Shown: positions 3,070 to 25,993 of the stretch, one piece after another
Position numbering within the stretch: position 1 is the first letter of the stretch
Layout of the letters: each line of letters opens with the position of its first letter
Source of the DNA: a virus
IMG/VR virus record: IMGVR_UViG_3300020438_000057
Span: 1 to 52,977 of that record
Reading direction: 5' to 3' (one strand)
DNA: 52,977 bases
Notes under the pieces: generated by a model
The model's database searches: none
Seen by the model: the letters and a program-made list of their open reading frames with translations, nothing else
What the model was told of the DNA's origin: nothing
Position numbers and translations under genes: made by a program

Positions 3070-3680
3070 TATATTCTGTCCTTGTGCATTTGTATTGAAT
3101 TGAATGATATTGAAATACGATCAGTATCTGATAAATTTTGTTCGACTTCATGTCCTCTGTTACTAGGAAATAAAATTAGTCTTCCTTCAACAGGCTCATA
3201 ATATACAGAACTCCATTGATGAAGATGTTCTCTATGTTCATTATCGTATATGGGTTTATGATGCTGATCAGGCACATTTAAAAATTTTATTCTTCCACAA
3301 TTTTCAGGACTCTGTACATAATACACACCACTCCATAGTGCATTAGGGTGTGTGTGAAAAGTATTGTATGCATGTTTTGGTGATACATTTGCCCACATAC
3401 TTTCTACAGTTAGAGGCCAATCAGAATTATAACCTTCTTCTATTGATAAACTCTTTTGAGCATCATTAATAGTATTCGTTATTTTGCTAAACTCTTCTCT
3501 AAAATGCATAGTTATAGTACTATGCCAACCTTGTTTATTAGAGCGTCCTACACCATCTTTATCTTCTTCTTTCCATTTGTATATATCACTAATCAATTCA
3601 CGATTCAATTCTTTTGAATTTTCTATATCAAAATAAAAGAAAGGAATAGAAAACCAAAATTCCCTTTGTATTTCAGACAT
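3069..3680 (-). CDS. 2OG-Fe(II) oxygenase, TIGR02466-like
   Basis: 203-residue putative iron/2-oxoglutarate dioxygenase. The double-stranded beta-helix signature is visible: HTHPNALWSGVYYV (first His pair at 109/111), a distal His in FPSNRGHEVEQ (about 177), and the co-substrate Arg in DRISISFN (188). These match the TIGR02466 family common in marine phages. Substrate unknown; in phages such enzymes have been proposed to act on nucleic acids, proteins or sugars. It is one of three such enzymes in the window and overlaps gp33 by one base. Confidence 0.8.
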   Translation of the reverse strand: MSEIQREFWFSIPFFYFDIENSKELNRELISDIYKWKEEDKDGVGRSNKQGWHSTITMHFREEFSKITNTINDAQKSLSIEEGYNSDWPLTVESMWANVSPKHAYNTFHTHPNALWSGVYYVQSPENCGRIKFLNVPDQHHKPIYDNEHREHLHQWSSVYYEPVEGRLILFPSNRGHEVEQNLSDTDRISISFNSIQMHKDRI

Positions 3681-4121
3681 TCACTTTTCCCATCTATAAA
3701 AAATATGCTTTTCTATTCTTGTTGTTCTAGTTTTAGTTCTAGCCCATCCAGGCTTTACATACGTTGCATGATAGTGTGTAGCACCTTCTGTGACATCTAT
3801 GTTTATTCTATTGTATAAAACAAGATATGCATATCTTTGTGCTTTCTTCCATGCTTTTTCATTTCTTGGTACATCGTCTTTTCCGTCACAGTACCAACTA
3901 AATTGACAACGATGTCTGACTGGATATTGTTTATTTGGATCTTCCCAAGAAGGGCGATGAGGCCCTTGCTTGACTACTTCGCAAACTGAGTTGGGATATC
4001 TACTATCTGCAACTCTGTTCATAACTACTTGTGCTGTAGCAATCTGTCCTATCATTGACTGATTCTTTGCTTCATGATAAGTATTGAGTGCTAAACAAAT
4101 AAATGCTGTTTCTAATATCAT
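3681..4121 (-). CDS. SleB-family cell wall hydrolase (probable endolysin)
   Basis: 146 residues matching the SleB/CwlJ hydrolase fold (PF07486). The N-terminal motif LNTYHEAKNQ carries the catalytic Glu17; AQVVMNRV, CQFSWYCDGK and ATHYHATYVKPGWA follow. The enzyme would cleave peptidoglycan. Residues 1-13 are hydrophobic and may act as a signal-anchor. No Shine-Dalgarno precedes the ATG; a promoter at 4128-4156 would start the RNA at or very near it. The lysis genes proper (spanins) are 27 kb away. Confidence 0.82.
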   Translation of the reverse strand: MILETAFICLALNTYHEAKNQSMIGQIATAQVVMNRVADSRYPNSVCEVVKQGPHRPSWEDPNKQYPVRHRCQFSWYCDGKDDVPRNEKAWKKAQRYAYLVLYNRINIDVTEGATHYHATYVKPGWARTKTRTTRIEKHIFYRWEK

Positions 4122-4127
4122 TCTTAT

Positions 4128-4156
4128 ACTCTATATGATTGTTGTTTATTTGTCAA
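4128..4156 (-). promoter_or_regulatory. possible promoter of the SleB hydrolase
   Basis: -35 TTGACA (4156-4151), 17-base spacer, weak -10 TAGAGT (4133-4128). The expected start is about 4121, the A of the ATG, so the message may be leaderless. The weak -10 keeps confidence low. Confidence 0.4.
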
Positions 4157-4158
4157 GT

Positions 4159-4587
4159 CTATTTTTTAAACTTGTCGTTCATAGATTCCAGTACACTATC
4201 AATATTAGGTTCTTGTCCGTTGGGATCATATTTACATTGATATTCATTAGGACATTGGCCCTCTACTACCAATGTGTAAGTATCGTTAGCACCTTTATAG
4301 AGACAAACTTGATCACCATTCTTAGCAGTTCTTCTCTTATATCTTCTGCATGTGATATACTTGGGATCTTCACGTTTGCCTAATCTCTTCTCTTGCTCCC
4401 ATGTCCAATCACTAAACTTCTTCATGTAACATGTGAAGCACTGTATTATGTTAGGCGTTTTATTCTCATTATTAAATCTATCACTCCAAGCATAATTTGG
4501 AATGAGAAATGCTAACAATAAAATTATTTTGATTGAAAGTATTAACGAAAGCCTGCGAATAGATGACTTGTATTGAAAACGAACCAT
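4159..4587 (-). CDS. exported Cys-rich protein, unknown
   Basis: 142 residues from ATG 4587; a longer TTG start at 4635 is unlikely. A basic N-terminus is followed by a hydrophobic signal segment (about residues 15-33, IILLLAFLIP) with a likely cleavage near AWS/D. The mature part has several cysteines (CFTCY, YITCRR, QVCLY, GQCPNE, YQCKY) and is otherwise charged. It overlaps the 3' end of the next upstream gene by 46 bases. Probably periplasmic with disulfides; no family recognised. Confidence 0.6.
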   Translation of the reverse strand: MVRFQYKSSIRRLSLILSIKIILLLAFLIPNYAWSDRFNNENKTPNIIQCFTCYMKKFSDWTWEQEKRLGKREDPKYITCRRYKRRTAKNGDQVCLYKGANDTYTLVVEGQCPNEYQCKYDPNGQEPNIDSVLESMNDKFKK

Positions 4588-5036
4588 GCGAACCAACCTA
4601 GTAATGCAACTATAACTCCAATACCTACAGTGCAAATTATTATATTTAAAATCTTTTCTCTTTGTTTCTCTCTAGCATAAACCATCTCTTGACGTTCTTT
4701 GCGAATCTTACCTTGCATTCGAATCAGTTCGTCCCATGCAGATGCTCCATGTGTAAACATGATGTATTGCTTGAGTTCGTATTCCATCTCCTCTGCTTTT
4801 TTCTTGGCGGCAAAGGCGTTCATTGCTTCTTCTTCTATAGATGAACCATTGAAAACTTTTTTATAGAATGGTGGATTCTTTGCATTCTTCTCTGCTTGAT
4901 TAACATCAGAAATAGCACCCATCCATCTACCAATATCGCCGTACATAGACTCGACATCTTTACCGAGTTGTATACCTTTCTTAATTGCTGAGAATGCAGT
5001 GCCTGCAATGGCCATTGCTGATACTGGATCTATCAT
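4542..5036 (-). CDS. conserved marine-myovirus membrane protein
   Basis: 164 residues: short hydrophobic N-terminus (PVSAMAIAGTAFSAI), charged middle with NPPFYKKVF and ASAWDELIRM, a helical K/E/R stretch, then one C-terminal membrane helix (about 128-155, IIICTVGIGVIVALLGWFAW). I recognise this as a family widespread in T4-like cyanophages and pelagiphages, of unknown role. It lies 86 bases downstream of a late box TATAAATA (5122-5129), so it is probably a late gene. Confidence 0.75.
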   Translation of the reverse strand: MIDPVSAMAIAGTAFSAIKKGIQLGKDVESMYGDIGRWMGAISDVNQAEKNAKNPPFYKKVFNGSSIEEEAMNAFAAKKKAEEMEYELKQYIMFTHGASAWDELIRMQGKIRKERQEMVYAREKQREKILNIIICTVGIGVIVALLGWFAWFVFNTSHLFAGFR

Positions 5037-5121
5037 TACTGTTACCTATGACTAATTTAATTGATTATAATGAAACAATCTTAAATGTCACAATACGTAA
5101 TAATATAATACAATCTAGTAG

Positions 5122-5129
5122 TATTTATA
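5122..5129 (-). promoter_or_regulatory. T4-type late promoter box TATAAATA
   Basis: Exact TATAAATA on the minus strand directly after the T-run of the tmRNA terminator and 86 bases before the ATG of the 164-residue membrane protein. T4 late genes are started at this box by gp55 sigma with gp33. Confidence 0.6.
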
Positions 5130-5163
5130 AAAAAAAAGAGCATCAGTGGTAACTGACACTCTT
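5129..5163 (-). terminator. rho-independent terminator of the tmRNA transcript
   Basis: Minus-strand stem AAGAGTGTCAG / CTGATGCTCTT with a 5-base loop, followed by nine T residues. It closes the transcription unit that begins at the tmRNA promoter (5752-5783) and separates it from the late gene downstream. Confidence 0.85.
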
Positions 5164-5340
5164 TTCATATTTAGTGTGGGAGGGACTGGCTTATACCCTC
5201 AACTAACACAACAAGATAAGCATATCTTTTTTAGTGTTAGAACTTACTTCCGTCATGTGGTGTTGACGATGTGATCTTGTATGACTAGCCCTTATTTCTA
5301 AGTATTCATCTTTCAAAACCTGGGTACCACCCCTAAGTAA
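5164..5340 (-). other. structured non-coding trailer between tmRNA and terminator
   Basis: About 175 bases without an ORF. It contains a strong hairpin at 5203-5240 (CTAACAC/GTGTTAG outer stem, AAGATA/TATCTT inner stem) and a GTCAT/ATGAC pairing around 5250-5290. Near 5320-5336 is GGGGTGGTACCCAGG, which resembles the T-arm segment of the tmRNA acceptor piece (GGGGGCGGTACCCA), and each is followed by GAATACTT. I see no tRNA. It could be a tmRNA processing trailer, a degenerate duplicate of the acceptor piece, or a separate small RNA. Confidence 0.45.
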
Positions 5341-5750
5341 TCAAGTTCACTCCTCTTGTCGGTAGAGTTCTTCCTTGCACCACGTTTTTTCTCCGTCGAG
5401 AAAAAATCTGTAATTCTGTGAGAGTGTTTCTGTTCCCAAGTACACTCTCTAAACTCGGTGCGATTAAGCCGCTAGTGCATAATCCACAGGTGCAATGTCA
5501 TCGTTTGCATTTAGTTTAATGTTCTCCACTAACCTACTACCTACCTGTCGATCCTATTTCGCCCCCATCAAGAATACTTGTTGATACGCCACTATCAAAA
5601 ATCTCTAAAGTATCTTACTACTCATGTCACAATTAAACGCAGACGCAGAGTTTGTGCTATGAAGGCGTAGTACTGAGCAAGTATTCTTGGTGGAGGCGAT
5701 GGGTACCGCCCCCATGTCCAGTCTAGTTTCATTTAGTCTCAACGAACTCT
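5340..5750 (-). ncRNA. ssrA: circularly permuted two-piece tmRNA (ssrA)
   Basis: tmRNA rescues stalled ribosomes and adds a degradation tag. Order on the minus strand: acceptor piece first (ending CGCCTCC-A-CCA, CCA at 5690-5688), intervening segment 5687-5567, then coding piece starting GGGGGCGAAATAGGATCGACAGG at 5566 (shown here only to 20: GGGGGCGAAATAGGATCGAC). The 7-base acceptor stem GGGGGCG/CGCCTCC pairs fully and has the G3-U70 pair of alanine identity. The tag frame 5508-5464 encodes ANDDIAPVDYALAA-stop, an alphaproteobacterial-type tag. The intervening segment is bounded by AGAATACTTG...CAAGTATTCT, which extends the stem for processing. AGAGTTC (5750-5744) can pair with GAACTCT (5370-5364), holding the two pieces together. 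Outer ends are inferred. The T-loop (GGCGGTA) is not the usual TTCGAAT. Confidence 0.93.
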
Positions 5751-5751
5751 T

Positions 5752-5783
5752 TATTTATAGCATATTGATTCGTGATTCGTCAA
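5752..5783 (-). promoter_or_regulatory. tmRNA promoter with overlapping late box
   Basis: -35 TTGACG (5783-5778), 18-base spacer, -10 TATAAA inside an exact TATAAATA late box (5759-5752). Two tandem copies of the 7-mer TGATTCG (plus strand 5766-5772 and 5773-5779) fill the spacer. The gene could therefore be read both early by host sigma70 and late by gp55. Confidence 0.7.
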
Positions 5784-5794
5784 GTCTTTTTTGA

Positions 5795-6172
5795 TTATTT
5801 TTGTGGAGTAAATATCTCCATTCCCCAACCATTACCTATGATACAGGCCCAATCAGCACTTATAAACTCTACTAAACTCCATGTTCCAGTTTCTTTGTTT
5901 AAACCGAATGCTATTGTAGTCTTCATCAATTCACCATTCTCACGTACTGAAACATTGCTCCAAGTCATGATAGGTTGTTCTTTCCATTCTTTTGTAAGTG
6001 TGTGTACAATAAAATCTGGATGCTGACATACAACAGGCTTCATTGCATTTGCTATCTCATCTTTTTCAAACATCTTGTGTAATTTTTTCAAGTCGGGCTC
6101 ATGTTCTCCCCATGACATACTACCACAACTAACATAAAACACAAACACTAATAAACTAAGATATTTTATCAT
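5795..6172 (-). CDS. secreted/lipoprotein-like protein, unknown
   Basis: 125 residues. The N-terminus MIKYLSLLVFVFYVSCGS is a signal sequence with a Cys at 16 that could be a lipobox (YVSC), although -1 Ser and -2 Val make it atypical. The mature part has two more cysteines (VVCQHPDF, WACIIG) and ends FTPQK. It overlaps the start of the upstream exonuclease stop by 17 bases. No family recognised; likely periplasmic or outer-membrane attached. Confidence 0.65.
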   Translation of the reverse strand: MIKYLSLLVFVFYVSCGSMSWGEHEPDLKKLHKMFEKDEIANAMKPVVCQHPDFIVHTLTKEWKEQPIMTWSNVSVRENGELMKTTIAFGLNKETGTWSLVEFISADWACIIGNGWGMEIFTPQK

Positions 6173-6824
6173 GATACTCTCCGTATAACTTTATCTTTTT
6201 TTGTGTAGATAGTATCCAATTGTCTCTCTTTTCTATAAATACTTGAGGACTCTCACCATCTACTGCTATGACTATTACAACTTGATCGATTGGTGTTTTT
6301 GTTCGTTCTTCATACATAACACAATAGGCAGAACCTTGTTGAAAATAATTCGTAATATATTCTTTCTTTTTAAGTTTTCTGGAAGTCTTAAAATCGATGA
6401 CGGAAAGCCTATTATTCCACTCAGCGATACAATCTACCCGTCCAGCGACTCTTAAATAATCTGAATAAAGGGTAGCTTCTTGAACTCTAACATTATTTAT
6501 ATTCTCGGAGAGTATGCCTTTTATAGTGCTGAAAGTTTCTTTGTCAGATGGCATGAACTTCTTTTCATCAAGTTCATTGTTGATAAAGTCTTCGCACATC
6601 TGATGTACTTTAGTACCTCGGCGTGATGCTTGAGTAGATATACGATTGGCCTCTTTTTCACCAACTCGTTGTCTCCACTCATAAATTGCTTTCTTATTGA
6701 AATGTCCTAATACTGTCGTTATAGACGGATACTTCTCACCACTAGGTGTAACATAGTATCTTTTACCATCTACAGTTTGAGTTTTGATTTCAGGTATGTC
6801 AATTCCTAGATGAGTAAACGTCAA
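6156..6824 (-). CDS. PD-(D/E)XK exonuclease, MGME1-like
   Basis: 222 residues. Nuclease core visible: KVHQMCEDF (His74 helix), GRVDCIAEW (Asp131), IDFKTSRK (Asp144, Lys146) and YFQQGSAYCVMYE, the order typical of the RecB/Cas4-like and mitochondrial MGME1-like exonucleases found in marine T4-like phages. Probably acts on DNA ends in recombination or host DNA breakdown. The start is TTG at 6824, overlapping the phoH stop (TTGA); no earlier or nearby in-frame ATG exists, and translation coupling to phoH is likely. Confidence 0.82.
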   Translation of the reverse strand: MTFTHLGIDIPEIKTQTVDGKRYYVTPSGEKYPSITTVLGHFNKKAIYEWRQRVGEKEANRISTQASRRGTKVHQMCEDFINNELDEKKFMPSDKETFSTIKGILSENINNVRVQEATLYSDYLRVAGRVDCIAEWNNRLSVIDFKTSRKLKKKEYITNYFQQGSAYCVMYEERTKTPIDQVVIVIAVDGESPQVFIEKRDNWILSTQKKIKLYGEYHDKIS

Positions 6825-7561
6825 CTCAGTCCAAGATCGAGTTTCGAAATAATATATTCTTTCACCAAATCACTCCTTACGATATCATGTTTATCAAATT
6901 CTATAAAATCAAATGACTTCATTCTTTTAATTACTTTCATAAATTCTAATACGCCGTCACGTTCATCTTTAAATCTAAAATCACTCTGTCTAAAATCACC
7001 ACAAAATACTATTTTACAATTATCACCTAATCGTGTGATTATACTATCTAACTCGTGGTATGTCATGTTTTGACATTCATCTACTATAACAACTGCATCG
7101 TTGATTGTCAAGCCTCTTATAAACGATGTAGTTGTAAAGTGTACTTGCTCACGTCCTTTGAGTATTTCGTAAGCATCACCTCTCTGAAACAATTCTGTAA
7201 AGATTGCATAGTAAGGTGCTTCATACACTTTTGATTTTTCTCTTTGATTGCCAGGGAGAAATCCCATGTCTCTTGTTGGTACTACACTTCTTATAATATG
7301 TAAACTACGTGTGTCGTTATAATTACTCAATACTTCTTGTGTTGCTAGATACAATGCGATAAATGTTTTACCTGTTCCTGCTACACCATGACACATTATA
7401 TTTTTGCCACTATAATATGAATTAAATACTCTCTCTTGTGTTTTCGTCATGGGTTCTACTTCTTTTACTCTTAAACCCGTATTTACTCTTTTAAGCTTTC
7501 TCTTTTGTTTATTCGTTAATGGTACAATATTGTCTTGAAGAAATGAGAGATTGTTGGACAT
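6821..7561 (-). CDS. phoH: PhoH-like ATPase
   Basis: 246 residues, PhoH family P-loop ATPase. Walker A GVAGTGKT (59-66), Walker B VVIVDECQN (157-165), and FCGDFRQSD as the sensor motif. The N-terminal ~35 residues are basic. phoH is a hallmark gene of marine phages; its cellular role is unsettled (phosphate starvation, RNA metabolism). It has AAGGAG before the ATG and feeds by overlap into the exonuclease gene. Confidence 0.93.
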   Translation of the reverse strand: MSNNLSFLQDNIVPLTNKQKRKLKRVNTGLRVKEVEPMTKTQERVFNSYYSGKNIMCHGVAGTGKTFIALYLATQEVLSNYNDTRSLHIIRSVVPTRDMGFLPGNQREKSKVYEAPYYAIFTELFQRGDAYEILKGREQVHFTTTSFIRGLTINDAVVIVDECQNMTYHELDSIITRLGDNCKIVFCGDFRQSDFRFKDERDGVLEFMKVIKRMKSFDFIEFDKHDIVRSDLVKEYIISKLDLGLS

Positions 7562-7573
7562 GGATACTCCTTG

Positions 7574-7909
7574 TTAATCGTTTGCTGACATTGGTTTCTC
7601 CTTTAGATTAGAATAAGTCCCTCTTCTTACACCATGCTTTTCTAGTGCATTTAATGTATTTCGTTCTTTTGTAGTTTTACGGCCCACTTGATCTGCTAGT
7701 GCTGATGTAGGGTGTGCTTCTGCTATTCGGGAGAGGTTTTCTTTCCACCCGCTATCATTCTTCATTCCACTGCCACTAATCATATTAACTTTCACAATTT
7801 GTTGGGTGATGTTTGGATTTTGTGAGAGATATTCTTCTCTCTGAGACATAGACATAAATTCAGTAAATGTTTCATCTGTGTCTTTATTCATAAATGTATA
7901 TAAAGGCAT
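7574..7909 (-). CDS. conserved phage protein with FmdB-like N-terminus
   Basis: 111 residues. MPLYTFMNKDTDETFTEFM resembles the start of FmdB-type small zinc-ribbon proteins, but the zinc cysteines are missing. The middle is Asn/Ser-rich and the C-terminus KERNTLNALEKHG is basic. I recall similar proteins in T4-like cyanophages with no assigned role. AAGGAG ribosome site. A late box TATAAATA lies 25 bases upstream, so it may be a late gene. Confidence 0.7.
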   Translation of the reverse strand: MPLYTFMNKDTDETFTEFMSMSQREEYLSQNPNITQQIVKVNMISGSGMKNDSGWKENLSRIAEAHPTSALADQVGRKTTKERNTLNALEKHGVRRGTYSNLKEKPMSAND

Positions 7910-7933
7910 TAATGCTCCTTGTTCATCATAATG

Positions 7934-7941
7934 TATTTATA
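7934..7941 (-). promoter_or_regulatory. late promoter box TATAAATA
   Basis: Exact TATAAATA ending 25 bases before the ATG of the FmdB-like gene and overlapping the stop of the Fe-S carrier gene. Position and spacing fit a T4 late promoter. Confidence 0.5.
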
Positions 7942-8224
7942 CGGCAAAAGACTCGCCACAACCGCAACTCGCCTTTGCATTTGGGTTAACTACTTTTAAA
8001 TAACTACCACCAAGTTCTTCTACATAATCTATTGTGCAACCAAACACAAACATTTCTGCTATAGGATTTAAATATAGATTACCTACAGTAGCTGTTTTAT
8101 CTGTAGTACCCCATTCATATTGAAAACCCGAACAACCACCACCTTTGACAGTGAGTGATACATTCGGGCTTCCTACCTTTTTAAGATAGTTTTCTGCTGA
8201 CTCTGTTAAGCTAATTGGTACCAT
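7937..8224 (-). CDS. A-type iron-sulfur carrier (IscA/ErpA family)
   Basis: 95 residues from ATG 8224; a GTG at 8248 would add eight. The three Fe-S ligand cysteines are intact: GGGCSGFQY (Cys31) and the C-terminal SCGCGESF (Cys87, Cys89), giving C-x55-C-x-C near the C-terminus as in HesB/IscA. Such proteins pass Fe-S clusters to apo-enzymes. In a phage it may support viral or host Fe-S enzymes during infection. It overlaps the end of the upstream gene, indicating co-translation. Confidence 0.9.
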   Translation of the reverse strand: MVPISLTESAENYLKKVGSPNVSLTVKGGGCSGFQYEWGTTDKTATVGNLYLNPIAEMFVFGCTIDYVEELGGSYLKVVNPNAKASCGCGESFAV

Positions 8225-8757
8225 GACGGGACACTTCTCTTTGTCCACTTTGCGAAAGAGTTCTTTGCTTCTATGTAATAGTTGTGATATGACTTTAGTG
8301 AGTCGCCTTCAACTATACAATCTGGATAATGACTCATCGCAGGTGTGGGTTGTGTAAATTCTTTTTCAGGTATATTTATAGGTTTTATAGCTAGAGCCAC
8401 TCTAAGTTTTTCGTCTGTAGAGTGTCTTTTACCATATCGATATGTGTACTCGTCACACAATGCAACAAACAAATCATAGAGCCATCTGTAGTTCAGTGAT
8501 GATTGTCTAGTCCATACTGACGATGGGTGATTGATATGACAAGCAAGATAATAAGTAGCTTCTTTGTAGTTGTCATCAAATCTGTATCGTTTAATTTTAC
8601 GGCCATTCTTAGATAGTTCTATACTCTCATTACCATCTAGAACTCTGTGTGCAGTTGATAGTAGTTGTGCATACTCTACAATCATCTTTACAACATGTTT
8701 GTCTACATGCATTCTAGCACACGTTACTGGATCTTCATCTAAATAAAATACGTTCAT
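8206..8757 (-). CDS. conserved T4-like phage protein, unknown
   Basis: 183 residues. Conserved-looking motifs: DEDPVTCARMHVDKHVVKM near the N-terminus, QLLSTAHRVLD, HPSSVWTRQS, and a C-terminal Trp/Tyr-rich KWTKRSVPSWY. I recognise it as a protein shared by marine T4-like phages, but know no function. It has its own promoter (8815-8843), which lies inside the small membrane ORF upstream, and a GAGAGG ribosome site. Confidence 0.75.
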   Translation of the reverse strand: MNVFYLDEDPVTCARMHVDKHVVKMIVEYAQLLSTAHRVLDGNESIELSKNGRKIKRYRFDDNYKEATYYLACHINHPSSVWTRQSSLNYRWLYDLFVALCDEYTYRYGKRHSTDEKLRVALAIKPINIPEKEFTQPTPAMSHYPDCIVEGDSLKSYHNYYIEAKNSFAKWTKRSVPSWYQLA

Positions 8758-19447: not shown

Positions 19448-20425
19448 CTATTTAAGTTTGAGAAAGCTACCTATATTTGTACTGTCATAGCATATTCGAT
19501 TTATAAACCAATTATAAAATGTTCTGTAGTTTTCTTTCATTATACCATTTGGTTGATTTTGTACTTTATGCCATGTTCTATCTAAGTCTTTCAAATCGCC
19601 TTCTATTACTGCAAAGTTATAATCTGCTCTACCAAATCTAACGATAGGTACGTCATGTAACATGGCCTCTTTTGCTGAACCAGAGTTTATAACATATACT
19701 GCTTTTGCTTGTTTGAATAGAGAGTGTATATTTACCTCATGATCAATAAAGTAACAGTTATCCATTCTTTTAGTAAACTGTCGCACATCTTCTAAACTTC
19801 CTGGATTTGCGGGATGATTCTTGAATATTAAATTAATTCTTTTATCATAAGTCCATTCCATGAGTTTTACTGCCCATGATATTACTTTAAGTCCACTATG
19901 ATATTTTATTGTTTCATCATGTGGTAATTGTAATGGTACAAATATATAATCACCTACATTATTTACAAAATTGCCAGACGGTTGAGCAAATTTAGATTCA
20001 CCTCTCAATGCTCTTTCTCTAAACAGTTCAAATGTTCTGTCTTCATCAGGTGCAACTTCCCAACCAGCTTTTGAATGTGATGAATTTCCTCCCCAACCTT
20101 CTTTATCGATTGTAAACAACCAAGGAAAAACTGTCTGCATATAATATCTGCATCTTGCATCACCATTAAATTGTTGACTAGAAGTGTGAGGTATGTAAGC
20201 TATATCAGGATCAAATTGTGTGACATACCCAGAGTCAAATTTCCATCTTTGATCTTCTACCACAATAACCTTATCATGTCTCATAGCATGATATTCATGT
20301 AACTTATCTACAAAGTTTTGCCAATGAACTCGTATAGGTTCTATGTGTTTCTTTCTTATCTCTAAACCAAATCTTTTAAATGGCAAATCTAGTCTTGGTT
20401 TAAGAATTAATACTTTTCTTGACAT
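19448..20425 (-). CDS. capsule polysaccharide biosynthesis/Kdo-transferase-like protein (PF05159-like)
   Basis: 325 residues. FVPLQLPHDETIKYHSG, IFKNHPANPGS, and YVINSGSAKEAMLHDVPIVR are the hallmark order of the Capsule_synth family, which includes KpsC/KpsS Kdo transferases. Together with the KdsA gene at 41 kb this suggests Kdo-type sugar transfer. No signal peptide. It starts one base after the GT8-like gene stop. Confidence 0.72.
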   Translation of the reverse strand: MSRKVLILKPRLDLPFKRFGLEIRKKHIEPIRVHWQNFVDKLHEYHAMRHDKVIVVEDQRWKFDSGYVTQFDPDIAYIPHTSSQQFNGDARCRYYMQTVFPWLFTIDKEGWGGNSSHSKAGWEVAPDEDRTFELFRERALRGESKFAQPSGNFVNNVGDYIFVPLQLPHDETIKYHSGLKVISWAVKLMEWTYDKRINLIFKNHPANPGSLEDVRQFTKRMDNCYFIDHEVNIHSLFKQAKAVYVINSGSAKEAMLHDVPIVRFGRADYNFAVIEGDLKDLDRTWHKVQNQPNGIMKENYRTFYNWFINRICYDSTNIGSFLKLK

Positions 20426-21153
20426 TACTTATCCCATACTCTATGTAAAGATCCTGGCAATCTATTAAAATTATTTTTAGCGGCCACATATTTTTTATTT
20501 TCATACTTTCTAGGCCCTTTACCAGTCCATATAACTGTGTTATCAATGAACTCCCAATCCATAAAATTACCATCGAACTTCGTTATGTCTTTATCTTCGA
20601 CTCTTTCAAATACTTCAGCGAGAGATATTTGATCAATAAACCATCTCATAGGGCCTTCAGATATTCTTTCTGTTACTGCATTTGCTATTGGTAATGCTCT
20701 TCTATCCATGTAAACACAACCAGCGGCAACTTTTGTACCTTTTGCTTCCCAACCAATTGTACCTTGTAATGATTGTCGAGGAAAGTAACCAGTAGGTGTA
20801 TCAGGATAGTCAAAGTCATTCATAAATATACAATCAGTATCGACAGTTAAAACTTTATCTGCTGACTTAATTATCTCTGGTAGTATCATAAATCGTAAAC
20901 AAGAATAGTAAGCACGAACATCTATTGGTGTTGCACCTATCTCATTGTATGTAAAAGTTATATCTACATCAATATCTTGTCTTAACAGTGATTCTAATCT
21001 ATGAACTCTACCAGTAGGATCACATATATGAATGTGAATATCTTTACCTATATCATTCAGAGAATATATTAAAGATGGTGCATGTTCATAGAAGTATTCT
21101 CTATCACAAGCGGCAAAGACTACAGGTTTAGTAGGAAGTTCTCCGTATATCAT
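20425..21153 (-). CDS. GT-A glycosyltransferase (GT8-like)
   Basis: 242 residues with a DxD metal site in LTVDTDCIFMNDF (about 103-108) and the N-terminal VVFAACDREYFYEHAPSLI typical of GT8-type GT-A folds. AAGCVYMDRRAL is the usual acceptor-side block. Likely uses a UDP-sugar. Overlaps the DoxX gene by 4 bases. Confidence 0.78.
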   Translation of the reverse strand: MIYGELPTKPVVFAACDREYFYEHAPSLIYSLNDIGKDIHIHICDPTGRVHRLESLLRQDIDVDITFTYNEIGATPIDVRAYYSCLRFMILPEIIKSADKVLTVDTDCIFMNDFDYPDTPTGYFPRQSLQGTIGWEAKGTKVAAGCVYMDRRALPIANAVTERISEGPMRWFIDQISLAEVFERVEDKDITKFDGNFMDWEFIDNTVIWTGKGPRKYENKKYVAAKNNFNRLPGSLHRVWDK

Positions 21154-21581
21154 GATGATCTATTCCCTCTCAATGCAAAGAATAAAGCACCAACCCATAG
21201 AAATACATGTAGATTATCATACATTATAACGTCCATAAGACTTGCTGGTTCACCAACCCATATCACACCAGTCATGATGCAACATAGTACGATACCACTA
21301 AAACGAGTAAAGAAGTCTCCCCAAGGTTCTACAATATCATGTCCGATTGCATAGTGCATAAACTCTGGTGTCTTCCATAATAATCCACCTATAATTAACC
21401 CTATGCCACCTAGCAGTTCACCATATGCAACAAACCACCAAACAAGATATGATAAGTCATATGTCGCCGCCTCTTCAGCACTGACAGGTAACTTCATAAT
21501 ACCTTGCTGAATAAAAACTACTATCAATGGTAATCTAAGTAACCAGTGACTTTGACAAAAATCTGGTATTCTAATCTTCAT
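21150..21581 (-). CDS. DoxX-family membrane protein
   Basis: 143 residues with about four membrane helices. LLRLPLIVVFIQQGIMKL and AYGELLGGIGLIIGG are the DoxX signatures (R-x-x-x-x-F-G-K and E-x-GG). DoxX proteins associate with respiratory or redox complexes at the inner membrane. Here it terminates the cluster of small membrane proteins that includes pseudoazurin. Confidence 0.85.
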   Translation of the reverse strand: MKIRIPDFCQSHWLLRLPLIVVFIQQGIMKLPVSAEEAATYDLSYLVWWFVAYGELLGGIGLIIGGLLWKTPEFMHYAIGHDIVEPWGDFFTRFSGIVLCCIMTGVIWVGEPASLMDVIMYDNLHVFLWVGALFFALRGNRSS

Positions 21582-21582
21582 T

Positions 21583-21822
21583 TCACTCTCCGTCTTTCAT
21601 AAAATCATTATAGTTTATCGAACCCCAATCCAGATTGTAATGTTCTGGATACTTCTTATCTTTCTCAAATTGTGTCAGTAGCTTATTTAATTCTATAGTT
21701 TCGGGGTGTTCCCATGTTCTAAGCTTCTGAAGTATTTTATTATCAGGATCTTTTTCTAATAGCTGACAGGCAGTCCAGTCCATAATCAATTGTCTCAAAG
21801 GAGTGTTTATAGCACCTGCCAT
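21583..21822 (-). CDS. small soluble protein, unknown
   Basis: 79 residues from ATG 21822 (TAATG overlap with the upstream stop, GGAGAGAG ribosome site); ATG 21837 is an alternative. Starts MAGAINTPLRQLIMDWTA; ends DFMKDGE. Not recognised. Confidence 0.6.
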   Translation of the reverse strand: MAGAINTPLRQLIMDWTACQLLEKDPDNKILQKLRTWEHPETIELNKLLTQFEKDKKYPEHYNLDWGSINYNDFMKDGE

Positions 21823-22079
21823 TAGTTCTCTCTCCATCTAAAAGTATTTTCTGTACAGAAGTTACGTAGAAACTTACAGTTGTTATCACCTCTACACACT
21901 CTCTCATGCTTGCTATTCTGCCAACACTCTGAAGTCCATGCACTTACATATTTGTTGACAACTCTATCCCACGTATCATCGATTGTAAATAGTCCTAAGA
22001 CAGGCAATATCATTGTCAAAAATATAATCCATAAAAAAGCAGGTGCAAAACCCTTATTATGATATGCTTTGTTACTCAT
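21822..22079 (-). CDS. membrane-anchored Cys-rich protein, unknown
   Basis: 85 residues from ATG 22079. One membrane helix at about 14-34 (FLWIIFLTMILPVLGLFTI) followed by a probably periplasmic tail with four cysteines (SECWQNS, ERVCRG, NNCKFL, RNFCTE). These could form disulfides or bind metal. Part of the membrane-protein run. Confidence 0.6.
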   Translation of the reverse strand: MSNKAYHNKGFAPAFLWIIFLTMILPVLGLFTIDDTWDRVVNKYVSAWTSECWQNSKHERVCRGDNNCKFLRNFCTENTFRWREN

Positions 22080-22080
22080 T

Positions 22081-22287
22081 TCAAAAACCTTCAATATAAA
22101 ATATTAAACTTATCCCAATCGCAAACCAGACAAATGGTGCTTTAGGATTTTCTACTAACCACTTCAATCCTGTATACTTCAGTATAAGAGACTCACTCTG
22201 ATCTTCTATTGGTATCTTACCATCTAGAGTATACTTCTCTTTACCTCTAGGATTAGGTGGCCCATTTATAAAATTCTGTCCAGGCAT
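22081..22287 (-). CDS. tail-anchored membrane protein, unknown
   Basis: 68 residues: Pro/Gly-rich N-terminus (PGQNFINGPPNPRGKEKY) and a C-terminal membrane helix (APFVWFAIGISLIFYIEGF). Overlaps the upstream stop as TAATG. Confidence 0.6.
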   Translation of the reverse strand: MPGQNFINGPPNPRGKEKYTLDGKIPIEDQSESLILKYTGLKWLVENPKAPFVWFAIGISLIFYIEGF

Positions 22288-22436
22288 TAGCTTGACATAT
22301 CTTTCAACATTGAGTTCATTTCTTCAATGTTAGCTTCCATTTCGTCCATTCTACTATCTATCGCTAGAGTAGTCATTACACTTAAACAACCTGCAACGAT
22401 TATCATTCCCCACATTATAATACCAAAATGTTTCAT
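22287..22436 (-). CDS. 49-residue membrane protein with coiled-coil tail
   Basis: MKHFGIIMWGMIIVAGCLSV forms an N-terminal membrane helix; the remainder (RMDEMEANIEEMNSML) is a short coiled coil. GGAGGAG lies 7 bases before the ATG, which overlaps the upstream stop (ATGA). Strong start signals make it likely real. Confidence 0.65.
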   Translation of the reverse strand: MKHFGIIMWGMIIVAGCLSVMTTLAIDSRMDEMEANIEEMNSMLKDMSS

Positions 22437-22864
22437 TCGTGTTCTCCTCCATTACCTCTTCCATTATAATTAAATACATGTGGTTTTCTTTTAGCAGTTT
22501 CAAATGTAGCTACCGTAATTACAATGGCGGCAATAATACATAAGTGTGCTACTACAGAAAACCCCCATATCCACATACTACCATATGCGAGTGCAAAACT
22601 ACTTGCCCAAGTCCAAGCAAGAATTTGTAGTATCATATGTCTAGCTTGTAAGCTAGGAATATTTCTGAGTGGATTTACATCAGCGTTCATTAATGCATTC
22701 CACATATTATAAATTGCTTCTCTCATTGAGAATACTCCTTCTTCAAATATTACTTTCTTAGGATAATGTGCATCAGCAGAATCACGCCAATCTATAGCAT
22801 CATACAAGTCATGAAACTTTTGTGTGATCTTGTGATTTTTAAAAAATGCAGTTACCCTATACAT
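22433..22864 (-). CDS. two-helix membrane protein, unknown
   Basis: 143 residues. Soluble N-terminal half (HDLYDAIDWRDSADAHYPKK), the motif NPLRNIPSLQARHM, then two membrane helices (about 78-97 and 103-122) and a tail ending GGEHE. It directly follows pseudoazurin, sharing one base (ATG/stop). The conserved-looking central motif suggests a real family, but I cannot name it. Confidence 0.65.
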   Translation of the reverse strand: MYRVTAFFKNHKITQKFHDLYDAIDWRDSADAHYPKKVIFEEGVFSMREAIYNMWNALMNADVNPLRNIPSLQARHMILQILAWTWASSFALAYGSMWIWGFSVVAHLCIIAAIVITVATFETAKRKPHVFNYNGRGNGGEHE

Positions 22865-23295
22865 TATAGTGCTTTCAGTATCTTCTTGAATTTCTTCTTA
22901 GACTTACCTCTGAACTTATGCTTTTTTACTTCAGCTAAGTTTACATCAGAATCACCTACTATGACAACACCAATCATACCCATAGTTGCATGTGGTGTGC
23001 AGACATACAGATAAGCACCTTCTTGTTCGAAAGTATAAGAAAATTCTGCACTGAGTTTACTCTTTACTTTTTCGACACCATCAGGTACAGATACAAATTG
23101 TACATTGTGTCCTTTCGATGCTGGTAACCATGTAATCGTATCACCTACATCTATTCGTGCTATATCTTCACTGTATAGCATTTTCTGTTTGCCTTTTTTG
23201 TTAAGCATATCTATGGACATATCTTCTGCTTTCGCAGATAAAACCATGCCACCCATAAAACATGCTACAATAAGAATTAAATATAAATTTTTCAT
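22864..23295 (-). CDS. pseudoazurin-like blue copper protein
   Basis: 143 residues: signal peptide (1-23, cleaved near AKA/ED) then a cupredoxin domain. Type 1 copper ligands are intact: His63 (KGHNVQF), Cys99, His102 and Met107 in VCTPHATMGMIG, with the C-x2-H-x4-M spacing of pseudoazurin. KKGKQKMLYSED and FSYTFEQEGAY also follow that family, and the basic C-terminus extends it. It carries electrons in the periplasm between respiratory complexes or to reductases. Surrounded by small membrane proteins, one COX-IV-like. Confidence 0.9.
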   Translation of the reverse strand: MKNLYLILIVACFMGGMVLSAKAEDMSIDMLNKKGKQKMLYSEDIARIDVGDTITWLPASKGHNVQFVSVPDGVEKVKSKLSAEFSYTFEQEGAYLYVCTPHATMGMIGVVIVGDSDVNLAEVKKHKFRGKSKKKFKKILKAL

Positions 23296-23513
23296 TCATC
23301 TATCTCCATATTTGAGTTGTAATCTTCTTTCCAAGCTGGATCAGATTGTGATGCAGTTGGATCGTCTAAAAAATTATTAAAGCCCATCACTAGTATTAAA
23401 AGAATAGCTATCACTGATATCCATTTTAGAAATGTAATAAAGCCTTTATAAGTTCTCTGAGCCTCTTCTAAAGCTTGTTGTTTGATATCATCGCTCAACC
23501 TATAAAACTCCAT
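23292..23513 (-). CDS. aa3-type cytochrome c oxidase subunit IV-like membrane protein
   Basis: 73 residues. ALEEAQRTYKGFITFLKW followed by a single membrane helix (ISVIAILLILVMGF) resembles the small bacterial aa3 oxidase subunit IV family (HERTYxGFLKLTKW-type block, PF07835). The polar C-terminal tail is longer than usual. Family call is by motif resemblance only. It overlaps pseudoazurin by 4 bases, so both are likely co-translated. Confidence 0.55.
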   Translation of the reverse strand: MEFYRLSDDIKQQALEEAQRTYKGFITFLKWISVIAILLILVMGFNNFLDDPTASQSDPAWKEDYNSNMEIDE

Positions 23514-23611
23514 ACTATGATGTTCAATAATAAAGTACCACCAAGGGCACCTGCCATAATTAAGAAAAGCGATAAGCCTTCGCTTTTTGTTGGATCAAAT
23601 TCGTACTTCAT
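23495..23611 (-). CDS. 38-residue membrane protein
   Basis: MKYEFDPTKSEGLSLFLI runs into a membrane helix (AGALGGTLLLNIIVWSF). Overlaps the upstream glycosyltransferase by 4 bases and the COX-IV-like gene by 19 bases. Packing and composition support it; role unknown. Confidence 0.55.
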   Translation of the reverse strand: MKYEFDPTKSEGLSLFLIMAGALGGTLLLNIIVWSFIG

Positions 23612-24336
23612 TTTCCTATTATCCCATATGTTACACCACGATCTACTTCGTAGTCTTCTAATTTATAACCTTCAAGTATTGCTTCATCGTAAGCTTTCTC
23701 GTATATCTCAACCAAGTCTTTACGAGGGTGTTCTTGAACTTGGCCAGTAAACCAAGCAGGGCGCCAAGGTTGAGTTGCCATATGTGTATAGTGCAATTGA
23801 TAGATTTCATCAGTATCACCATCGTGTGAGTTCCATCTCTTATCTAATGTACCGACTAAATCATTTTGTATGAAAAGATTAATAAATTGATGGTGTGCAG
23901 TAGCATCTTCTTTCCATGTTTCTACTGCTGGTACTACACTCTTCCACTTAGCACAATCATAAACAATTACACAAAACTCTTTACCACCAAATCTTTCACC
24001 ATCTCTTGCAATACATAGTTTACCTTCGGGTATTTCTATATCAATCAATTCAGCCATATCTTTTATATTAATCATATCAACATCTGTATAGATTGCTTTA
24101 CCTTCAAAGTTACACGCTTCAGGTATACCCCAACGAAAACCGGAGAATGGTGTACTCCAGTTCTGATCGGCCCAACCATGCCAAAAAGATGTCTCATCAT
24201 TAGTTTGTCGCATCCAAGTTATCTCAACTGGGCGACTACAGTTCTTTCGTATTGAATGCTCATAAGCCATTTCTATTTTTGCATCTTCACCATTAGATGA
24301 GGTACCAATAAAAAGTTTCACTGTATCATTTGCCAT
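23608..24336 (-). CDS. GT-A glycosyltransferase-like protein
   Basis: 242 residues. A DxD site in AIYTDVDMINIK (about 85), N-terminal LFIGTSSNGEDAKIEMAYE, and FSGFRWGIPEAC fit nucleotide-sugar transferases of the GT8-like group. His/Trp-rich C-terminal half. Likely modifies surface sugars. Begins within the 3' end of the GIY-YIG gene (11-base overlap). Confidence 0.72.
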   Translation of the reverse strand: MANDTVKLFIGTSSNGEDAKIEMAYEHSIRKNCSRPVEITWMRQTNDETSFWHGWADQNWSTPFSGFRWGIPEACNFEGKAIYTDVDMINIKDMAELIDIEIPEGKLCIARDGERFGGKEFCVIVYDCAKWKSVVPAVETWKEDATAHHQFINLFIQNDLVGTLDKRWNSHDGDTDEIYQLHYTHMATQPWRPAWFTGQVQEHPRKDLVEIYEKAYDEAILEGYKLEDYEVDRGVTYGIIGK

Positions 24337-24946: not shown

Positions 24947-25993
24947 CTATACCCCGTAGATAGTGTTATGTGTGTTGTTGACACGTACAAACGTAGTACA
25001 CTTACTTAGTTGTTTTAAATTACTTGCTCCTACATATGTACACGCTGAACGAACACCACTAAGTATATCTACTACAGTAGGTTTTACTGCACCTCTATAC
25101 GGCACTGTTACTGTTTTACCCTCTGAACCACGATACTCGTTCTTTATTAGATTACCATGTTTCTCCATTGCAGTTTCTGAAGCCATACCATAGAACTTCA
25201 TTCCTACTGGAGTTGGATTATCATCTTCGAATATTAAGTCACCAGCACATTCATTATGTCCTGATAGCATACCACCAATCATCACAAAGTCAGCACCAGC
25301 GGCAAATGCTTTCACAATATCTCCTGGTGTATTGCAACCACCATCAGCAATTACATGTCCACCAAGTCCGTGAGCGGCATCTGCACATTCAATTACTGCA
25401 CTCAACTGTGGATAACCCACACCAGTTTTAATTCGTGTAGTACATACTGAGCCAGGGCCTACACCTACTTTTACTACATCTGCACCAGCTAATATAAGTT
25501 CTTGTGTCATATCAGCAGTTACAACATTACCGCAAACGATTGTAGCATCTGGTAATTTATCTCTAAGTTTTTTAAGAGCATCTACAACCGCAATAGTATA
25601 ACCATTTGCAACATCAATACCGATAAAAGACATACGTGTACTATTCCATATCTCAATAACACGATTCATTTCTTCATCTGATATACCAGCTAAACAACCT
25701 AAGAACTCTCTTCCTTTATCCATGTACACCACTTTCCACCACTCGTCACTTAGATTGAGTGCTTTTGCTATACATGTTACCATATGAAATTCTGTAAGTG
25801 CAGAATGCATTTTGAAAGTACCTACAACGTCCATATTAGCGGCCATGATAGGTACACCAGTCCATTCTCTTTCGCTATGTCTGAACTTATATGTTCTTTC
25901 TATATCAACACTTGCTCTTGTTTTCAATGTAGAACGCTTCGGACGAATCAATACGTCCGAATAATCTAACTTAATATCTTCACTAATTAACAT
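24947..25993 (-). CDS. guaC: GMP reductase
   Basis: 348 residues, aligning along its length with E. coli GuaC (347). Seen: [32 protein letters not shown], and the active-site loop [11 protein letters not shown] with catalytic Cys184; FVMIGGML and YRGSEGKTV flap region follow. It converts GMP to IMP with NADPH. It lacks the CBS domains of IMP dehydrogenase, which favours GuaC. It sits directly behind the ribonucleotide reductase gene, sharing one base with its stop, so it probably helps rebalance purines for DNA synthesis. Confidence 0.92.

Follow-up and report, generated by a model that had tools for sequence, protein, structure and literature searches.

A candidate respiratory electron-transport gene block in T4-like phages of marine alphaproteobacteria

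Related systems in marine phages

Cyanophages carry genes for photosynthetic electron transport, which include psbA, psbD, petE (plastocyanin), PTOX and hli. To our knowledge, it is only for cyanobacteria that the control of host energy metabolism by phages is well documented. The phage described here was found in the IMG/VR record IMGVR_UViG_3300020438_000057, of which the stretch from position 1 to 52,977 was analysed as a whole (the window, 52,977 nucleotides). It is likewise a T4-like marine phage that possesses host-derived genes for membrane electron transport, a small blue copper protein included, and its gp43 is closest to that of cyanophages (about 57%). However, the carrier here is a pseudoazurin (PAZ), its partners are oxidase-subunit-like and DoxX-type proteins that come from respiring alphaproteobacteria, and no gene around the block was recognised as part of a photosystem.

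The Methylophilales phage Melnitz and the pelagimyophages are also T4-like phages of marine heterotrophs. Melnitz, which has a two-piece tmRNA, shares with the block a homologue of the membrane protein g143 (55%), but no match to DoxX, to the COX4-like protein or to pseudoazurin was found within 8 kb of that gene. These three proteins are not named in the text of the pelagimyophage AMG survey either, and a tblastn search of INPHARED gave no isolated phage with any of them. No paper naming this gene set was found in the literature searched (open-licence papers), and the module can be seen as a possible analogue of the photosynthesis genes of cyanophages.

The gene block and its proteins

Nine ORFs, all on the minus strand, make up the block at 21150-23611 (Table 1). 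Neighbours either overlap at start and stop, as the earlier note had described, or are a few bases apart. The ORFs encode a pseudoazurin, a COX4_pro_2 protein, a DoxX protein and six more small proteins. The same note had taken several of the small proteins for membrane proteins; at least one span is predicted in five of the six, the exception being g84. The glycosyltransferases that it placed on both flanks were not confirmed by Pfam: the flank at 20425-21153 has a resemblance to GT8 that stays below the cut-off (12.5 bits against 24.3) and the one at 23608-24336 has no Pfam match. A promoter scan of the block gave no more sites than were found in shuffles. All the block genes have dN/dS values that indicate purifying selection. 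An artefact of a single contig or a contamination with host DNA was rejected, given the T4 replication genes of the same record and the occurrence of the block elsewhere.

Table 1. Genes of the block in the window
Feature	Coordinates	Strand	Basis or characteristics
DoxX membrane protein	21150..21581	-	PF07681
g84, soluble 84-aa protein	21583..21837	-	ORF; no span
g90, single-span protein, four-Cys C-terminal domain, presumably periplasmic	21822..22079	-	
g68, C-terminally anchored membrane protein	22081..22287	-	ORF; span 50-68
g49, 49-aa single-span membrane protein	22287..22436	-	ORF
g143, membrane protein, undescribed family	22433..22864	-	ends in invariant GEH[E/D/V], usually GGEHE
Pseudoazurin	22864..23295	-	PF00127, TIGR02375; signal-like N-terminal segment, type-1 Cu ligands, lysine-rich C terminus
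g73, COX4_pro_2 (aa3-type cytochrome c oxidase subunit IV-like)	23292..23513	-	PF07835; single span
g38, 38-aa single-span membrane protein, first gene of the block	23495..23611	-	ORF; span 15-33

The pseudoazurin matches PF00127 with 60.7 bits (cut-off 21.2), and TIGR02375 is by far its best family, with 106.3 bits, which falls short of the NCBIfam equivalog cut-off (109.85) by 3.5 bits; this last profile was matched by all 10 phage copies. The copper ligands His63, Cys99, His102 and Met107, complete in the window as first noticed, are invariant in 10 divergent phage copies. Solved pseudoazurin structures were matched with E values down to 4e-34, and with known members such as PDB 3tu6 and 1bqk the phage protein shares the full type-1 copper site in an alignment that spans the whole mature domain. 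A hydrophobic segment at residues 3-21, followed by AKAED, is a putative signal peptide. In contrast to known pseudoazurins, the phage gene accompanies DoxX and COX4-like genes and not denitrification genes. In some phages it adjoins genes for a ribonucleotide reductase (RNR) and a glutaredoxin-like protein.

The resemblance of g73 to subunit IV of the aa3 oxidase was confirmed by PF07835 (27.9 bits, over the Pfam gathering cut-off of 22). This is not a chance hit of a hydrophobic helix, because none of nine shuffles preserving composition and segments was matched, nor were the other small proteins of the block, single-span ones included. The profile was also matched by 9 of 14 divergent phage members. 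In a blind profile search of the PDB five of the six matches were aa3 subunit IV (Paracoccus, Rhodobacter and others), with E values of 0.26-0.78 that are each non-significant. The dN/dS of g73 is 0.10-0.29. Like the bacterial subunits (Paracoccus 1qle_D/7ate_D, Rhodobacter 1m56_D), g73 has an N-terminal helix and a single span, and the phage proteins have in common with them a motif of the T-x-x-G-F-I-K type. Nevertheless, the bacterial subunit ends with its C-terminal helix, whereas in g73 the span (25-43) is followed by a tail of about 28 aa. Across the phage family these tails have 20-39 residues, with motifs such as TGSxY[DN], and, unlike its bacterial counterpart, the phage gene has no other oxidase subunits encoded alongside.

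DoxX also proved to be correctly named, with 29.0 bits against PF07681 (gathering cut-off 23.6) and matches to this profile at E <= 0.001 in all 10 divergent phage members; with these results all three profile searches that had been suggested for the block (PF07835, DoxX and pseudoazurin) are above the Pfam cut-off, which for the pseudoazurin is that of PF00127. At least 203 relatives of DoxX exist in IMG/VR and 53 loci were found in bacterial genomes. The phage copies match the same Pfam family as the DoxX of bufferin clusters and of mycobacteria but belong to a marine alphaproteobacterial subfamily. A likeness of DoxX to the L/M chains of photosynthetic reaction centres (PDB, E 0.03) was treated as chance.

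Regarding the other proteins, g143 matched no Pfam family and profile searches suggested no function; it has 67 members in the viral loci. The likely start of g90 is the ATG at 22079, the listed ORF beginning at a TTG at 22094. The periplasmic cysteines claimed by the earlier note were borne out for this protein, in which four (C-X9-C-X5-C-X6-C) are conserved in divergent members, their location being presumed; it occurs in 42 loci with a dN/dS of 0.015-0.11. The remaining proteins were found in 23 loci each for g38 (dN/dS 0.14-0.25), g49 (0.15-0.51) and g68 (0.07-0.12), and in 12 for g84 (0.08).

Recurrence in phages and bacterial relatives

DoxX and pseudoazurin were found again in dozens of marine T4-like contigs of IMG/VR, a diverse group, where they are accompanied by the COX4-like protein, g143 and g90. 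Within 3 kb of DoxX, in 24 non-redundant loci, we found COX4 in 16, g143 and g90 in 12 each and PAZ in 9, always on the same strand, while at 3-8 kb (n=11) the counts were 0, 1, 1 and 0, respectively. When PAZ was the seed, DoxX was present within 3 kb in 15/28 loci and COX4 in 12/28, against 1/17 and 0/17 at 3-8 kb. The set is not obligatory, since many DoxX or PAZ loci lack other members; COX4 is missing within 3 kb of PAZ in 16 of 28 loci. As for the gene order, it is nearly kept in close relatives and reshuffled in distant ones, which keep the set, so that the conservation looked for in related phages applies to the set throughout and to the order only among close relatives. The earlier note had named as refuting its proposal a failed profile search together with absence or scrambling of the block in all relatives. 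Neither the profiles nor the related phages gave such an outcome, and a set of an electron carrier and an oxidase-subunit-like protein on a phage is supported.

The bacterial relatives of the block genes are marine alphaproteobacterial, and the host of the phage is an alphaproteobacterium. Among the bacterial DoxX genes found, the closest belong to Rhodobacteraceae, SAR116 and unclassified marine alphaproteobacteria, and g143 has homologues in 9 of 30 genomes of marine alphaproteobacteria. For g90 none was found in 190 bacterial genomes, in a search that had no positive control. In the PAZ tree phage and bacterial copies are interleaved, and the starred branches force at least four changes. 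One bacterial pseudoazurin of the phage subfamily has ctaB on one side and, on the other, a complete cox operon (COX2, COX1, two COX3 and COX4_pro) with ctaA. Moreover, the phage COX4 profile recovers a genuine host gene of the subunit IV type in OCS116/Rhodobiaceae, which adjoins a transhydrogenase-like gene. The bacterial copies of DoxX and g143 are mostly away from oxidase genes.

SAR11 is not supported as host. Close relatives of the phage have a MazG gene inside the block, and MazG is reported to be absent from SAR11 myophages (PMC7029224). A host search by DNA similarity of the tmRNA gave only short matches of 33-35 bases.

Possible function and alternatives

The identities of the three proteins, the copper ligands, the recurrent clustering, the purifying selection and the alphaproteobacterial ancestry are directly supported. 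As is asked of an AMG, these are host-related metabolic genes that recur across phage lineages under purifying selection. We therefore favour, with a probability of roughly 55%, the reading that T4-like phages of marine alphaproteobacteria have in this block an auxiliary module for respiratory electron transport that works on the host oxidase, and the gene set probably lets the virus adjust host respiration during infection. The bacterial pseudoazurin next to a cox operon, the host subunit IV-type gene recovered with the phage profile and the interleaved PAZ tree also count in favour of it. Against it speak the individually non-significant PDB matches, the tail that host subunit IV lacks, the loci with an incomplete set, the position of most bacterial DoxX and g143 copies away from oxidase genes and the link of DoxX with copper and oxidative stress in other bacteria. 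No COX1 was found in 28 related virus records, which may be fragments (the control was positive in 8 of 14 genomes). For the records sampled, a phage-encoded oxidase was thus rejected, and the targets of the set would have to be complexes of the host.

The pseudoazurin, once exported to the periplasm, would bring electrons to the host heme-copper oxidase as an additional carrier, and the COX4-like protein may act as an alternative subunit IV, inserted into the host aa3 oxidase or beside it. Accessory or assembly roles in the same membrane could fall to DoxX, g143, g90 and the tiny membrane proteins as additional subunits. In this way electron flow, and hence ATP and the proton-motive force, might be maintained while host expression is shut off. 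Thus, of the electron-carrier and oxidase-subunit module proposed by the earlier note, the set is real and recurrent, while its action on the host oxidase is inferred. A stronger version, in which the kit rebuilds the terminal oxidase branch, the tail of subunit IV docking the pseudoazurin and a copper-protein route replacing cytochrome c, is doubtful. The charges of tail and pseudoazurin show opposite trends across phages (rho -0.72, n=19), and in 11 thinned lineages the correlation is -0.59 (p=0.057); this is suggestive only.

In bufferin clusters, which bind copper, DoxX belongs to the core genes, and one of its homologues gives protection from oxidative or sulphur stress (PMC12452194). It could accordingly be argued that DoxX, thiol-rich membrane proteins such as g90 and the copper protein protect the infected cell against oxidative or copper stress, the COX4-like protein being an anchor with no role in the oxidase. 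The four conserved cysteines of g90 and the phages with PAZ beside RNR and the glutaredoxin-like gene agree with this. However, no MNIO (DUF692) or DUF2063 gene was recognised, by eye and with the families scanned, beside the phage or host DoxX examined, whose neighbours were profile-scanned in part, and stress protection leaves unexplained both the subunit IV-like partner and the pseudoazurin in a cox operon. We consider this explanation unlikely.

It is less likely again that the small membrane proteins serve in host takeover or superinfection exclusion, blocking other phages or tuning lysis, in a variable region that carries pseudoazurin and DoxX as passengers. Most of the block is indeed made of tiny membrane proteins in such a region, which in the clade of the window also has putative glycosyltransferases, and members of g143 weakly resemble T4 RIIA.1, below threshold. 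Yet divergent phages have kept both the copper ligands and the match to the oxidase-subunit profile, and in their occurrence the membrane proteins follow DoxX, PAZ and COX4 and not the putative glycosyltransferases, which are found only in close relatives of the window.

The least probable proposal is that the pseudoazurin is reduced by a PQQ alcohol dehydrogenase, or that it supplies the reaction centre in hosts that are aerobic anoxygenic phototrophs. In its favour, a PqqE-like gene adjoins a host pseudoazurin of the phage subfamily in two small genomes, and one Rhodobacteraceae genome has pseudoazurin, pufL, pufM and DoxX inside a stretch of 6 kb (related loci keep PAZ near DoxX). However, the puf-linked pseudoazurin falls outside the phage clade in the PAZ tree, and among the neighbours of the phage genes none was recognised as a gene for PQQ or photosynthesis.

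The finding names an undescribed protein family, g143, ending in GGEHE, and offers a possible function class for dozens of unannotated small phage membrane proteins. If the respiratory reading is true for these phages of abundant marine heterotrophs, viruses would also tune the oxygen consumption of non-photosynthetic plankton, and the module would provide a testable gene set for such viral tuning of host respiration.

Gene block and its recurrence in marine T4-like phages

The 52,977-base record, an IMG/VR virus contig, carries replication genes of T4 type, namely gp32, gp43, a RecA/UvsX-like recombinase, a DnaB-like helicase, a primase and a class II RNR. On the minus strand lies a block of nine genes whose ends overlap or nearly touch. 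The genes that flank the block had been read as glycosyltransferases, an assignment which Pfam did not confirm. Upstream there is a gene of the IMPDH/GMP-reductase family, which is also found in relatives, often near the module.

Features of the record and of one bacterial locus used for comparison
Feature	Position	Strand	Details
Permuted alphaproteobacterial-type tmRNA, then manA RNA motif	5171-5786	-	RF01849, 94.6 bits; RF01745, 61.8 bits
Nine-gene block	23611 -> 21150	-	order g38, g73, pseudoazurin, g143, g49, g68, g90, g84, DoxX
DoxX	21150-21581	-	PF07681
g143	22433-22864	-	membrane protein
N-terminal extension of g143	22733-22864	-	44 aa
Pseudoazurin	22864-23295	-	Copper-bind
IMPDH/GMP-reductase family protein	24947-25993	-	PF00478, 238.8 bits
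Cluster in Rhodobacteraceae single-cell genome (locus L167)	3258-8402		pseudoazurin, pufL, pufM, DoxX

The earlier note had asked whether the block is conserved in related phages. The set does recur. Gene order is almost unchanged in the closest relatives, for example at locus L008 and at L019, which lies on a contig of 146.6 kb, except that a MazG gene separates g73 from pseudoazurin; more distant T4-like contigs hold subsets of the module in different orders. Relatives in IMG/VR number at least 203 for DoxX, at least 88 for pseudoazurin and at least 12 for g73, and tblastn of the same three genes against INPHARED gave no match. Among non-redundant loci, module members are far more common within 3 kb of each other than at 3-8 kb, always on the same strand. 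In several contigs (for example L066 and L070) the set is placed between hsp20 and gp43, an interval that in cyanophage syn9 contains four small unnamed genes. The dN/dS against syntenic relatives was about 0.5 or less for all the window genes compared, and mostly below 0.25.

Identity of the block proteins

The three families first named from the sequence, a COX4-like protein, a pseudoazurin and DoxX, all pass profile searches: g73 scored 27.9 bits with COX4_pro_2 (cut-off 22), the pseudoazurin 60.7 bits with Copper-bind (cut-off 21.2) and DoxX 29.0 bits (cut-off 23.6). With the pseudoazurin equivalog model (TIGR02375) the window copy reached 106.3 bits against a cut-off of 109.85. The copper ligands proposed for this protein (H63, C99, H102 and M107) held up in the comparison, showing no variation in ten divergent phage copies.

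The PF07835 model was matched independently by nine of 14 divergent phage members of the g73 family; it matched none of nine shuffled versions of g73 in which each segment (N-terminal, membrane and tail) kept its composition, and none of the block's remaining single-span proteins. When a profile of the phage family was compared with all PDB chains, five of the six matches were to subunit IV of aa3 oxidases (Paracoccus, Rhodobacter and another), each of them individually weak (E 0.26-0.78). In two OCS116/Rhodobiaceae genomes the profile also finds a short gene of subunit IV type that adjoins a transhydrogenase-like gene. Unlike subunit IV of the aa3 oxidase, the phage copies carry an extra tail of 20-39 residues after the membrane span.

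The g143 proteins (loci L221-L225 and L228 as well as the window) are an undescribed membrane-protein family common to phages and bacterial chromosomes. Homologues were present in 9 of the 30 bacterial genomes examined, several sharing the GGEHE ending, and one was found in the OM43 phage Melnitz. This C-terminal tail is almost invariant in the family, with a variable insert before it in some members. The N-terminal extension, which weakly resembles T4 RIIA.1, occurs in the window copy and a few relatives; most members lack it.

Bacterial relatives and the host

The bacterial relatives of DoxX come from marine alphaproteobacterial genomes and single cells, and phage and bacterial copies are interleaved in the trees of both DoxX and pseudoazurin. 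The phage and bacterial labels require about six changes in the DoxX tree, two of them forced by well supported branches, and five in the pseudoazurin tree, of which four are so forced. In the Rhodobacteraceae MAG MED-G08, a DoxX 85% identical to a phage copy has a short RNR fragment alongside, as in phages; this possibly reflects transfer from phage to bacterium, or the binning of a phage contig with this MAG. In the Rhodobacteraceae single-cell cluster, the genes after DoxX encode a small single-span protein and one resembling DUF4149, whose score falls just short of the cut-off.

The record encodes a permuted tmRNA of alphaproteobacterial type (tag ANDDIAPVDYALAA), which points to an alphaproteobacterium as the most likely host; the manA motif follows directly downstream of the tmRNA. 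A SAR11 host is unsupported because close relatives carry MazG, which is reported to be absent from SAR11 myophages (PMC7029224).

Proposed function of the module

The best context evidence comes from a bacterial genome (G132) in which a pseudoazurin belonging to the same subfamily has ctaB on one side and a complete cox operon, with ctaA after it, on the other; this suggests that members of the subfamily serve a heme-copper oxidase. A search for COX1 in 28 related virus records, with a working control, found none. An exploratory comparison found the charge of the COX4 tail complementary to that of the pseudoazurin, a relation which is not independent of phylogeny and which we put forward strictly as a hypothesis.

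On the simplest reading, which we consider probable, the phage would supply the oxidase branch of its host with a carrier and accessory subunits; docking to the oxidase, the direction of electron flow and the parts played by DoxX, g143 and g90 are inferred. Rival readings are that the block protects against redox or copper stress, that it acts in superinfection exclusion, or that it takes electrons from PQQ enzymes or passes them to reaction centres.

Electron-transport genes are known in cyanophages (see also PMC5082946). No paper describing the present gene set was found among the open-licence papers searched, and the main text of two pelagiphage AMG papers mentions neither cytochrome, azurin nor DoxX.
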